In this document: piece by piece, positions 14,300 to 26,551 of the stretch
Position numbering within the stretch: position 1 is the stretch's first letter
Layout of the letters: every line of letters starts with the position of its first letter
DNA from: a virus
Direction: 5' to 3' (one strand)
Virus record (IMG/VR): IMGVR_UViG_3300049856_000161
Location: 1 to 26,591 of that record
Length of the DNA: 26,591 nucleotides
The notes under the pieces: generated by a model
The model's database searches: none
What the model was told of the DNA's origin: nothing
The model's input: the letters and a program-made list of their open reading frames with translations, nothing else
Translations under genes and position numbers: made by a program

Positions 14300-15646
14300 T
14301 CAGCGAGGTTTGGAGAGGTGTTGGACAGCGAACGCCAACGCCGAATCGGGTTCGGCTGCCGTCACCGGGGCGTAGGAACCAGTTGCACGCAGGGGCTGTC
14401 CCTGCTTTGCGACCGGCCTTACGACTGGTTTCGGCTGTCTCTCTGCGAACTCCGCTTGAGCACGGCGGGCAAGCCCGACGCGCTTCATGGGCGGGATCGA
14501 TCGTGGATCGACACCGGGCCATTTCTCCTGAACCAATCGAGTGATGATCGGAACCAAGTGCTTTTGGAAGTGCTCGGAAATAGCCGCTGGCGCAATTCCG
14601 GCCTCGGAAAGATCCGAGACGATTTCTGACCACGCATCGTTATCCGCTGAAGCGGTTGACGATGGTTGGCGTTCACGCTGCTGAACAGGCTGTTCGCGCA
14701 GTGCTGGAGCCTGACGCAGCTCAGGCCGCGCCGTGGTTTCGGGCTTCTTCGCTGCTACCTTCACCCCAGATGCAATCTCGGCTGCATGCAGCAGTCGAGC
14801 GCGTTCCTCGGTGATGGCCTCGGAATCCACCAAGTCCTGAAGATCAGCCGGCAGTCTGCCAGTGAACTCAGAAACTTGTCCCAGCGGACTTCCCATCGCG
14901 GTATAGATTTGGTCGAGAGAATCCCGAACCCCATCCAACACAGCAAGGTCGTCCTTGTGCGGCATGTACCCTTTGCCAATGGCATCGGCTGCGCGCACGG
15001 CTGAAGCAGAAGCCCGGATGGCTCCTGCGAACTCGTCGGTCGACACATGACCAAGCTCGTCATCGCTGATGCCGTAGTGCTCGAAAAGCTTCGTGTAATT
15101 GCGCCCCGTCTTTGCAAACGGTTCGTTTTCCGCGTAGTTTTTCTCACGCTCGGCGAGCTTCGTTTCCGCAGTGCTTGCACGCTTGTGCAGCGACACGATA
15201 CGGTCACGGGTTTTGATCTTGATGTCGTCGCGGCTCAGACCCTCAAATGGGTCGTCCTTCTTCTCGTCACTGGCTGGCTTCGGCTGCGTGGCCTGCTTCG
15301 CGTCAAGCTTCTTCTCGGGCGCTTTCGACGCCTCCGGTTTCTGCTCGGGCTCGGCCTGCTTACGCTGCTCCGGCTTGATCAACGACTGAATGGCGTCGTC
15401 GTGCGGGGTGGCAGAGGCTGGATCCTCGGCGTCGGGATTGGCGTCTCCCTCGGCGTCTTCGGTTCCGTCCGATTGCGAATCGGGTTGGCGCTCCTGTTCC
15501 TCTGGCTCCGCAGCCAGTGGGGCTTCATCGTCATCGACGGGAAGCCGGAATTGTTCGTCCTGTTCCTGGGAGGTCGAAGCTGGCGAAGCCTCGTCAATCA
15601 CGCCCGCAGCAGTGGTCATGGCGGGACCGTAGGACAACAACGCCAT
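14300..15646 (-). CDS. Scaffolding protein, 448 aa
   Basis: The N-terminal quarter (residues about 20-125) is strongly acidic, then Lys/Glu/Pro-rich and low in hydrophobics, typical of the flexible part of a scaffold. Residues about 140-180 form a charged coiled coil (HKRASTAETKLAEREKNYAE). The rest is helical, and the C-terminus carries basic patches (RRAQAEFAERQPKPVVRPVA) suitable for coat binding. It lies 18 bp upstream of the coat gene, the standard scaffold position, and is longer than many scaffolds. Two starts are possible: ATG at 15646, only 5 bp from the 19-bp motif and without a visible ribosome site, and an in-frame ATG at 15619 (MTTAAG), also without a good site. No protease motif is seen, so it appears to be a pure scaffold. 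Confidence 0.85.
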   Translation of the reverse strand: MALLSYGPAMTTAAGVIDEASPASTSQEQDEQFRLPVDDDEAPLAAEPEEQERQPDSQSDGTEDAEGDANPDAEDPASATPHDDAIQSLIKPEQRKQAEPEQKPEASKAPEKKLDAKQATQPKPASDEKKDDPFEGLSRDDIKIKTRDRIVSLHKRASTAETKLAEREKNYAENEPFAKTGRNYTKLFEHYGISDDELGHVSTDEFAGAIRASASAVRAADAIGKGYMPHKDDLAVLDGVRDSLDQIYTAMGSPLGQVSEFTGRLPADLQDLVDSEAITEERARLLHAAEIASGVKVAAKKPETTARPELRQAPALREQPVQQRERQPSSTASADNDAWSEIVSDLSEAGIAPAAISEHFQKHLVPIITRLVQEKWPGVDPRSIPPMKRVGLARRAQAEFAERQPKPVVRPVAKQGQPLRATGSYAPVTAAEPDSALAFAVQHLSKPR

Positions 15647-15670: not shown

Positions 15671-15687
15671 GGTATCGTTATGACGCT

Positions 15688-15721
15688 GTACCACAAAGCG
15701 TCACGTGAATCCTTGTGGTAC
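15688..15721. promoter_or_regulatory. 34-bp nested dyad between divergent scaffold and HNH genes
   Basis: GTACCACAA (15688-15696) and TTGTGGTAC (15713-15721) are perfect inverted arms. The palindrome TCACGTGA (15701-15708) sits exactly at the centre, with four bases on each side. The exact concentric symmetry suggests a site for a dimeric or tetrameric DNA-binding protein. Its ligand is unknown. Confidence 0.75.
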
Positions 15722-15740
15722 ACCAGAAAAGGTGTACCAC
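15715..15740 (+). promoter_or_regulatory. 10-bp perfect inverted repeat just upstream of HNH start
   Basis: GTGGTACACC (15715-15724) and GGTGTACCAC (15731-15740) flank AGAAAA. In a rightward transcript this forms a stable hairpin ending six bases before the HNH ATG and would hinder ribosome loading. It shares its left arm with the 34-bp dyad, so the two structures may be alternatives. Confidence 0.75.
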
Positions 15741-15746
15741 TAAGGC

Positions 15747-16061
15747 ATGACCGACAAACACTGCTCCAAGTGCTCACTCCCCCGCCGTGCGTCAGGCAGG
15801 TACTGCCTCGTCCACCATGCCGCCTACATCCGAAAATGGCGAGAAACCCACCCGCTGACCGGCGAAGCCAAGATGAAGCACAATGCCCGCTGCTACGCGA
15901 ATTGTTACGTGCGCCGTGGGAAGATCGCGCGCAAACCCTGTCGTACCTGCGGCAACAAGCGCTCACAGATGCGCCACAACGACTATTCGAAGCCGCTGGA
16001 AGTCGTCTGGCTCTGCCGACCATGCCACCTCAAGCACCACGCGACCACCGACGCCAAGTAA
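15747..16061 (+). CDS. HNH endonuclease-like zinc protein, 104 aa
   Basis: This is the only clear rightward gene inside the late module. The N-terminus has a CxxC pair (Cys6, Cys9) with Cys20 and His23/24, a likely zinc site. The C-terminus has Cys65-x-x-Cys68-Gly, then HNDYSKPLEVVWLC with His77 and Asp79, and Cys90-x-x-Cys93-His94 with His97. This is the usual order of a phage HNH (beta-beta-alpha metal) nuclease stabilised by a CxxC zinc knuckle. HNH proteins in phages act as homing endonucleases or aid packaging; its opposite strand, flanking dyads and own terminator fit an inserted selfish gene, but that is inference. The ribosome site is poor: AAGG lies only one base before the ATG, and a hairpin immediately precedes it. 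Confidence 0.85.
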   Translation: MTDKHCSKCSLPRRASGRYCLVHHAAYIRKWRETHPLTGEAKMKHNARCYANCYVRRGKIARKPCRTCGNKRSQMRHNDYSKPLEVVWLCRPCHLKHHATTDAK

Positions 16062-16068
16062 CGCAAAA

Positions 16069-16091
16069 AACGCCGGGTTCGGGCCGGCGTT
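16069..16091. terminator. Bidirectional rho-independent terminator
   Basis: AACGCCGG (16069-16076) pairs perfectly with CCGGCGTT (16084-16091) around seven bases. Leftward transcripts meet a run of six U (complement of 16065-16070) and rightward transcripts meet TTTTT at 16100-16104. It ends the HNH gene on the plus strand and the portal-to-90-residue gene operon on the minus strand. Confidence 0.9.
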
Positions 16092-23370: not shown

Positions 23371-23787
23371 GCGTCAGCTCCTGGTCTTGGACGATGCGTG
23401 AGGGTTCTATATCTCTCCCGTGGGGCCTGAAAATCGAAAAGGGCGTGCGCGCCGGAGTCTTACCGCCGTACACGGGGAAGACCGGCGAATCTCGCGACCA
23501 GCTCACGCACACCAGTGGCCGCGCGTCGACTCTGCGATCCCCGGCCACCAGACTCCGACCGTCCGCTCCGGGAGTCGCCGGCCTGTCTCGCGGACGGCGG
23601 CGGGACACCTGCGCGCACGCGCTTTCAATCTCTCCTCTGATCCGCAGGGATTTTATCGATCTTTCATCATTTCCGATCGATGATCAGCGATGCCTAGCAA
23701 TCGCACTCCGATTCAGTGGTCTTCCCCTTCGTTCACCGCCTACTGGTCAGCGTTTACACCGTGAAAACGGCAAAGCACTTTCAAGTC

Positions 23788-23816
23788 ATCAACGTATCGC
23801 GATGGATCGATATAGT
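23788..23816 (+). promoter_or_regulatory. Weak candidate rightward promoter
   Basis: A good -10-like TATAGT (23811-23816) has a poor -35 (ATCAAC, 23788-23793) at 17-bp spacing. The perfect palindrome at 23831-23844 would fall just after the start site, where a repressor could act. The weak -35 makes this tentative. Confidence 0.35.
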
Positions 23817-23830
23817 CACTTTTCCCTCAC

Positions 23831-23844
23831 GTTACACGTGTAAC
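23831..23844. promoter_or_regulatory. Perfect 14-bp palindrome, operator-like
   Basis: GTTACACGTGTAAC is its own reverse complement. It lies in the control region just downstream of a candidate -10 (TATAGT) and is a plausible operator half of the switch between early and late transcription. Confidence 0.6.
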
Positions 23845-23852
23845 TGAACCTT

Positions 23853-23884
23853 CCACAAGCCCAGGTCTACCTGCCTCCTTGTGG
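23853..23884. promoter_or_regulatory. Nested inverted repeat CCACAAG/CTTGTGG
   Basis: CCACAAG (23853-23859) and CTTGTGG (23878-23884) enclose CAGGT/ACCTG (23862-23873). The outer arms share CCACAA/TTGTGG with the dyad at 15688-15721, but the spacing differs, so a common ligand is only a possibility. Confidence 0.5.
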
Positions 23885-23937
23885 CCACACTCCTACATGT
23901 GGTACGGATCAGACTGCGCCCAGGTAGCGGCATCGTT

Positions 23938-23957
23938 CCATCACGATGGAGTGATGG
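23938..23957. promoter_or_regulatory. 7-bp perfect inverted repeat CCATCAC/GTGATGG
   Basis: The arms lie at 23938-23944 and 23951-23957 around six bases. The repeat overlaps the next dyad (23954-23978) by four bases, so the two could be alternative structures or adjacent protein sites. Confidence 0.5.
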
Positions 23958-23978
23958 ATAGTGTGATACACTGTCCAT
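23954..23978. promoter_or_regulatory. 25-bp imperfect palindrome overlapping candidate early promoter
   Basis: ATGGATAGTGT (23954-23964) and ACACTGTCCAT (23968-23978) form 11-base inverted arms with one mismatch around GAT. The right end touches the -35 of the candidate early promoter, so bound protein could repress or activate it. Confidence 0.65.
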
Positions 23979-24006
23979 TGTCCGGGACTCTACCCGATGG
24001 TATGTT
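23978..24006 (+). promoter_or_regulatory. Candidate sigma70-type early promoter
   Basis: TTGTCC (23978-23983, 4 of 6 to consensus) and TATGTT (24001-24006, 4 of 6) are separated by 17 bp. Start of transcription near 24013 would give a leader of about 45 bases before the first rightward gene. An operator-like dyad abuts the -35. Confidence 0.5.
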
Positions 24007-24057
24007 GTCCGCGATCTAGGACGCTATGCCCATCACCCCAGCCAAGGAAGACAGTCC

Positions 24058-25549: not shown

Positions 25550-26551
25550 ATGGCCCACATGCTCGACACCACCACCGGAACCGCCGCCTGCTACTCCCTC
25601 CGCAACAACCCCTGGCACAGACTCGGCGTTGTCGTCAATGCCCCCGTTGCGGATCCCCAGGTACTGACCCTCGCGGGACTTGACTGGACCGTCAGCGTTC
25701 GCGATGCCTTCACTCTCGACAACGACGGAAACGCACTGGCCATTCCGCACTGTCGCGCCGTGGTTCGCAGTGACAGCAACGTTGCCCTCGGCGCGGTCGG
25801 CGACCGTTATCAGCCCTTCCAAAATGCTCAGATGCTGAATTTTTTCCGTCAAGTCTGCGATGCTGACGCTGTAATTGAAACCGCCGGAGCACTCGACCAG
25901 GGTCAACGTGTCTGGGCCCAGGCGATGATTCCCGAACTGTCGCGAGTCATCGGCAAAGACGTGTCACACGGTGGCCTGCTGATCACCAACAGCCACGACG
26001 GCACCGGAGCGTTGCGCATCCTGCCGACTGAGACGCGCGTCGTCTGCAATAACACGCTCACCGGAGCACTTTCGCGCGCAGTGTGCCCCAAGGGTCGCCA
26101 GAACACGGAAGGCGACATCGTGGGCGGATTCCGTGTCACCCATACCAAATCGATGAACGCTGGCGTGCAGCAGGTTGCCGACCAGTACGCCGCTGCAATT
26201 GCTGGCTGGCACGCACAGAGCGAAGCCCTCGCCCAGCTCGCCAGCGTGCCAAGCGATCAAAGCAGCCTTGCCCACATCATGAACGCAGCCTTCCGCATCA
26301 CTCCCGATGCGCTGAAGGATGAGGGCGCACGCGCCGCCAAGATTCGTAGCGATCGCACCGACAGCATTGTGAGGATCCGCCATAGCCCGACCTGCAACGT
26401 TGAAGGCACTGCCGGCACCGTGTACGCCGACCTGATGGCCGTCACCGAATGGCTGGATCACGAATGGAAGCGCGGTCCTGCCGCCGCACTGATGGACGCT
26501 GGACAGATCATCAAAGCCGACGCGATGGAAGCGGCGCTTTCCCTGGTCTGA
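25550..26551 (+). CDS. DUF932 / phage-plasmid-like protein (TIGR03299-type), 333 aa
   Basis: The ATG at 25550 has AAGGAA seven bases upstream. The N-terminus MAHMLDTTTGTAACYSLRNN, followed by PWHRLG, is the usual start of DUF932 phage/plasmid-like proteins. Family-type segments follow: HCRAVVRSDSNVALGAVGDRY at about residue 64, QPFQNAQMLNFF next to it, then GGLLITNSHDGTGALRILPT and RVVCNNTLTGAL at about 143-174. The length is normal for the family and the stop lies 40 bases before the window end. The family is common in phages and plasmids, often near replication or recombination genes, but its biochemical role is not established. No membrane or catalytic motif is evident. Confidence 0.93.
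   Translation: MAHMLDTTTGTAACYSLRNNPWHRLGVVVNAPVADPQVLTLAGLDWTVSVRDAFTLDNDGNALAIPHCRAVVRSDSNVALGAVGDRYQPFQNAQMLNFFRQVCDADAVIETAGALDQGQRVWAQAMIPELSRVIGKDVSHGGLLITNSHDGTGALRILPTETRVVCNNTLTGALSRAVCPKGRQNTEGDIVGGFRVTHTKSMNAGVQQVADQYAAAIAGWHAQSEALAQLASVPSDQSSLAHIMNAAFRITPDALKDEGARAAKIRSDRTDSIVRIRHSPTCNVEGTAGTVYADLMAVTEWLDHEWKRGPAAALMDAGQIIKADAMEAALSLV

Follow-up and report, generated by a model that had tools for sequence, protein, structure and literature searches.

The leader of a solitary HNH gene

The window analyzed here, meaning the whole stretch of DNA, is a 26.6-kb virus record in which TerL (PHROG 979, E 2e-47) lies on the minus strand together with the surrounding structural genes. Among these stands a solitary plus-strand gene, antisense to its neighbors, that encodes an HNH endonuclease. 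The matches that identify capsid and portal are weak (PHROG E 0.002 and 0.1, respectively), and family-profile searches gave no match for the putative scaffold gene, which is assigned by its position. Between the putative scaffold gene and the HNH gene lies an array of symmetric elements, one of which is identical in sequence to the core of parS, the chromosomal attachment site of the bacterial chromosome-partitioning protein ParB. The features are as follows.

14300..15646, minus strand: putative scaffold gene, beside the weak capsid match and divergent from the HNH gene
15681..15703, plus strand: hairpin III, TGACGCT-9-AGCGTCA, which as RNA excludes the large dyad
15687..15694, plus strand: copy A of TGTACCAC; the 10-mer TGTACCACAA runs to 15696
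15687..15722, no strand: large dyad TGTACCACAA-4-TCACGTGA-4-TTGTGGTACA, copies A and B facing inward, 16 bp between 10-bp arms
15701..15708, no strand: central palindrome TCACGTGA, same letters as the parS core (parS sequence: PMC7022226)
15711..15745, plus strand: hairpin II (RNA), copies B and C facing outward; pairs the AAGG preceding the HNH start codon
15715..15722, minus strand: copy B, plus-strand letters GTGGTACA; the 10-mer TTGTGGTACA starts at 15713
15733..15740, plus strand: copy C of TGTACCAC
15747..16061, plus strand: HNH endonuclease gene, 104 aa, zinc-knuckle-like N-terminal part plus HNH domain (PHROG 2340, E 5.5e-14)
16069..16091, minus strand: terminator-like hairpin AACGCCGG-7-CCGGCGTT followed by a T run, between the HNH stop codon and the next gene

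A terminator scan of the window did not flag the hairpin at 16069-16091, and a promoter scan found no sigma70-like promoter in the window leader. Elsewhere in the window, positions 25550-26551 encode a DUF932 protein (Pfam E 4e-37, PHROG 1221 E 2e-54), and a long stretch without a convincing gene, 23371-24057, separates minus- from plus-strand genes. This possible control region holds a TCCATCAC hairpin (23937-23958) and two word copies with one mismatch each (23899, 23963).

The PHROG 2340 profile is matched by the window HNH protein and by 40/40 aligned relatives. The predicted model of the protein (pLDDT 94.8) finds its best structural match, over residues 37-104, in the Gme HNH nicking endonuclease 4h9d, at a modest Z of 5.5; the score against GVE2 HNH is also modest (Z 4.0), and Foldseek alone, with the model as query, returned no significant match. 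In the HNH motif (15972-15977; RHNDY), R76-H77 stands in place of the HH of nearly all relatives. The first position of this pair is probably a metal ligand. With an arginine there, the window protein may be a weak or dead nuclease, and the window copy may be a diverged, possibly noncutting member of the family that keeps its operator.

The large dyad and hairpin II are both built on one 8-mer, TGTACCAC, at 15687 (+), 15715 (-), and 15733 (+). The original prediction had described a concentric dyad and a second hairpin here, and both are present. The arms of the dyad proved one base pair longer than described, giving 36 bp (15687-15722) with symmetry at 15/18 positions per half, and the 16-mer around TCACGTGA equals parS at about 11/16 positions by hand count. 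The second hairpin has a perfect 10-bp core (15715-15740) and is larger in its RNA form, where 14 bp with one bulge form between 15711 and 15745; in the predicted fold, CCUU pairs with the AAGG directly 5' of the AUG at 15747. The predicted outer helix of the leader RNA pairs the start codon as well (fold z of -5.3 and -4.8). Overlooked in the prediction was a third hairpin, at 15681-15703, which together with hairpin II excludes the large dyad.

Window-wide, the array is only marginally unusual. Some 8-mer occurred three times within 54 bp in 13/300 Markov shuffles of the whole window, and an equally good 36-bp dyad arose in 3/60 whole-window shuffles and in 1/5000 shuffles of the 100-bp leader. 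Exact TGTACCAC is found in the window in these three copies only, and matches with up to one mismatch are at chance number. Because the word does not recur, we rejected a phage-wide regulator or a phage-polymerase promoter as explanations for the window fragment. We nonetheless take the array as real because of its position in the leader and because its unit is conserved in relatives.

A conserved word in one HNH family

Searches of the phage collection, by DNA and by protein, returned no close relatives of the window; the exceptions were a weak portal match (Rhizobium phage RHph_N65, 21.5%) and remote matches for HNH and TerL. Single-protein scans of IMG/VR with HNH, capsid, and portal gave no near relatives, the exact large dyad is absent from IMG/VR, and no empty site for the window HNH gene was found in the collections searched. 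About 400 Bacillota and 400 Bacteroidota genomes, examined for copies with a known host, gave no match. Bacterial genomes gave two matches to the outer arms (L007, L008); their surroundings are unrelated, and we took them as chance. An alignment-based scan of IMG/VR yielded 80 loci, about 33 of them full-length orthologs of the HNH gene, and a second scan yielded 80 more, overlapping with the first. We kept 100 distinct loci; 53, counting the window, belong to the close family (HMM score of at least 110), and the other 47 are HNH genes at a greater distance.

In the relatives searched, we found neither of the two perfect dyads. The unit of the array that is conserved across relatives is not the dyad but the word GTGG(A/T)ACA. 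Within 150 bp upstream, the 8-mer (counted as GTGRWACA) is present at 28/53 close family members versus 0/47 distant HNH genes, 7 of which have leaders of at least 40 bp (p=2.9e-10). For the 7-mer, the counts are 35/53 and 1/47 (p 1.7e-12), and about one-third of the close family is without even this shorter form. An unbiased count of all 8-mers in the upstream 150 bp of 28 orthologs ranks GTGGAACA/TGTTCCAC first, at 9 loci versus 0.05 expected (p 8e-19), and a hand tally finds the word in 11/23 members first met in the second scan. Elsewhere in the family contigs, the word is at background level except at the 3' end of the HNH gene, where it occurs in 7/53 members (Poisson p 1e-6).

The 3' ends also contain degenerate parS sequences, such as tCCACGTGGAACA, inside the last codons of the HNH genes of L038, L042, L098, and L101 (about +310). 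Changes between GTGGAAC and GTGAAAC at these 3' ends alter the amino acid (LHVE to LHVK) and keep the half-site, which hints at selection on the DNA.

In two different contigs, L017 and L020, homology begins exactly at the first word, at -34, and continues into the gene, indicating that the word travels with the gene and belongs to the cassette. These two loci and the window form a clade (support 97/84) with a common word variant, GTGGTACA. We set aside as evidence an apparent covariation between RYCxxHH proteins and a T at word position 5. The two occur together in the window, L017, and L020, and independently again in L027, but L031 and L127 combine the T with a protein lacking the H, and a better -10 element may be all that the T provides.

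The word is placed close to the start of the gene. Ten of 18 forward copies cluster at -16/-17 from the start codon, and nearly half of the copies are in reverse orientation. At five loci (L102, L103, L024, L040, L042), the word lies over the -10 element of a predicted TTGxxx-17-TGnAACAAT promoter, with the start codon 6 to 7 nt downstream; a protein bound at the word would thus block RNA polymerase. The GTG bases outside the -10 element are as fixed as those inside it. Copies are paired inward in L017, L020, L023, L046, L128, and window A/B, paired outward in window B/C, and in tandem in L042, L110, L129, L052, and L056. The window has both opposed arrangements, and single-copy leaders are common among relatives.

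parS and the HNH gene in one terminase group

In most motif-bearing relatives, the word is exactly a half-parS, GTTCCAC or GTTTCAC, which is bound by ParB of P. aeruginosa and several others (PMC7022226; PMC10419367). The window copies read GTACCAC, one base off. HNH cassettes contain half-sites, and full parS (at least 15/16) is absent from them. In 27 of the phage records, no ParB gene scored above the cutoff.

To search for empty sites, we used TerL, the downstream neighbor of the HNH gene in one set of loci, and fetched 80 relatives, nearly all of which lack the HNH gene. Many of these carry full parS, several at 54 to 161 bp upstream of TerL, and none appeared in shuffles. Over whole contigs, parS with up to one mismatch is present in 15/41 HNH-less versus 0/46 HNH-bearing records; the HNH-bearing set includes unrelated phages, which makes the TerL group the proper frame for the comparison. 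In the TerL tree (n=26), 10/19 HNH-less phages have intact parS versus 0/7 HNH carriers. HNH and parS are scattered over this tree and never coincide, with at least 4 HNH and at least 6 parS changes forced. The exclusion has a p of 0.013-0.043 by contig, from few independent events, and some HNH-less phages have neither HNH nor parS.

At individual sites, the HNH gene of L103 lies directly 3' of the resident parS, immediately after the right half that L178 still has, and that of L127/L134 lies directly 5' of a site that is parS in L185/L181. In L038, L042, L101, and L032, the resident site at the homologous place departs from parS in its left half. The overall pattern resembles a homing-endonuclease footprint with parS as the target, although the independent cases are few. 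The original prediction had offered the array as a possible place where the HNH element inserts or cuts. For one terminase group, this idea now has indirect support: twice, independently, the gene is found precisely at the position of a resident parS, and in no case does it have an intact parS next to it. The support does not extend to the window itself, which is without a near relative in the collections searched.

Canonical parS (15-16 of 16) lies in HNH-less phages at L175 2397, L177 2394, L178 150, L191 324, L193 643, L195 2340, L185 1721 and 1972, and L228 4238. At L179 480-795, the place homologous to that in L178 lacks the entire parS block (about 20 bp), which suggests that parS itself is gained and lost.

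Candidate readers of the word

Based on these observations, we propose, with a probability of roughly 0.47, that the array is a cassette-borne operator most likely read by the HNH protein itself, with parS as a related target. The operator unit would be an asymmetric protein-binding word of 8-10 bp, (C)GTGG(A/T)ACA, of which the window has three copies; opposed copies of such a word would automatically give dyads and hairpins. The word accompanies the small zinc-knuckle HNH gene through unrelated phages, over its promoter/start region, and protein bound there would shut off transcription of the gene; in the window copy, an RNA hairpin may additionally hide the start codon. We infer that the HNH protein is the likeliest reader, acting by autorepression as in I-TevI, and parS, as two such words back to back, would be the site at which this nuclease family attacks or inserts. 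Self-binding fits a word confined to one family, cassettes without full parS, the mutual exclusion of HNH and intact parS, and the precedent of I-TevI. The operator suggested by the original prediction is supported in altered form, since the conserved object is the half-site in the HNH family, often over a promoter, and not the dyad.

The same word is a known ParB site, and host ParB could therefore account for it without any binding by HNH. The phage would borrow the host protein, which would bind the half-parS words in the HNH promoter and silence or time the gene. Binding of half-parS by several ParB proteins (PMC7022226; PMC10419367) speaks for this, as does the full parS upstream of TerL in HNH-less relatives: no ParB gene was found in their records, and parS thus serves these phages in some way that is independent of HNH. 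SGI1, which hijacks the IncC parABS system (PMC10954446), offers a precedent. However, the word keeps to one HNH family, with 0/47 among the distant HNH genes, cassettes never have full parS although it is the better ParB site, and GTGGTACA, the variant in the window, departs from the canonical half-parS. We regard host ParB as a live contender with clearly less than even odds. Two further accounts were considered. The word could be nothing but the extended -10 element, GTGGAACAAT, of a leaderless gene, in line with the TGnAACAAT promoters, their -35 at 17 bp, the start codons 6 to 7 nt downstream in several relatives, and the peak of forward copies at -16/-17. The reversal of nearly half of the copies, the equal fixation of GTG outside the -10, and the lack of a TTGxxx-17-TGnAACAAT promoter in the window make this very improbable.

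The other account, which the original prediction had also raised, is a translational switch: by burying the ribosome site and start codon, hairpin II would keep read-through transcripts untranslated, and the dyad would have no role as DNA. The window fold is strong (z -4.8 to -5.3), and start-codon hairpins with the word are predicted in L103 (-3.4), L032 (-3.2), and L038 (-2.2); T4 segB, I-TevI, and Aeh1 mobE are precedents (PMC2988022). Such a switch is possible, but the hairpin is weak or absent in L017, L020, and L124, a switch does not need both word orientations or copies at the 3' end, and single-copy leaders are common. We consider it improbable as an explanation of the array.

Our preferred reading, the self-read operator, has its closest parallel in I-TevI, the intron homing endonuclease of phage T4, an autorepressor whose operator lies over its own promoter and resembles its target site (PMC2988022). 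As proposed, the phage endonuclease gene studied here would share with I-TevI a zinc-binding module in its protein, an operator over its own promoter that resembles the target site, and an RNA hairpin over the start (PMC2988022), and the word overlaps the promoter in L102, L103, L024, L040, and L042 with the geometry of the I-TevI operator. I-TevI, however, is an intron-encoded GIY-YIG enzyme with one 20-bp site, whereas here we find a free-standing HNH gene with a short, repeated, parS-related 8-mer as its putative operator. Free-standing HNH/GIY-YIG homing genes of T-even phages are likewise solitary genes between phage genes: in mobE (Aeh1) and segB, a hairpin hides the ribosome site, and segD is antisense beside a capsid gene (PMC2988022). 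The cassette here differs in carrying a conserved DNA word. With the half-parS and parS of chromosomal ParB, the relatives share the exact word, and HNH-less relatives the full site; the differences are the GTACCAC of the window, the restriction to one gene family, and phage records in which no ParB was found. SGI1 is similar in being a mobile element that exploits ParB-type sites belonging to the partition system of a different replicon, but that system belongs to a plasmid, its sites are not chromosomal parS, and no HNH gene is involved (PMC10954446).

Endonuclease genes with operators over the promoter and hairpins over the start are already known. What appears to be new is a word related to parS and conserved across the family, and no paper joining HNH genes and parS was found among the open papers searched. 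A bolder scheme, which we think rather unlikely, is that HNH cassettes are widespread and that the nuclease recognizes parS, a centromere sequence nearly universal in bacteria, and inserts at or cuts the full parS of rival phages or hosts, while its own half-sites spare it and serve as the operator.

If the operator reading is true, a DNA word can be named for a large, uncharacterized phage HNH family so far found almost only in metagenomes, and this word would link the family to the bacterial centromere site parS. The canonical chromosomal parS upstream of the terminase gene in some phages in which no ParB gene was found raises the question of its use. A simple test would also arise, setting the phage nuclease against host ParB as the reader of the word.
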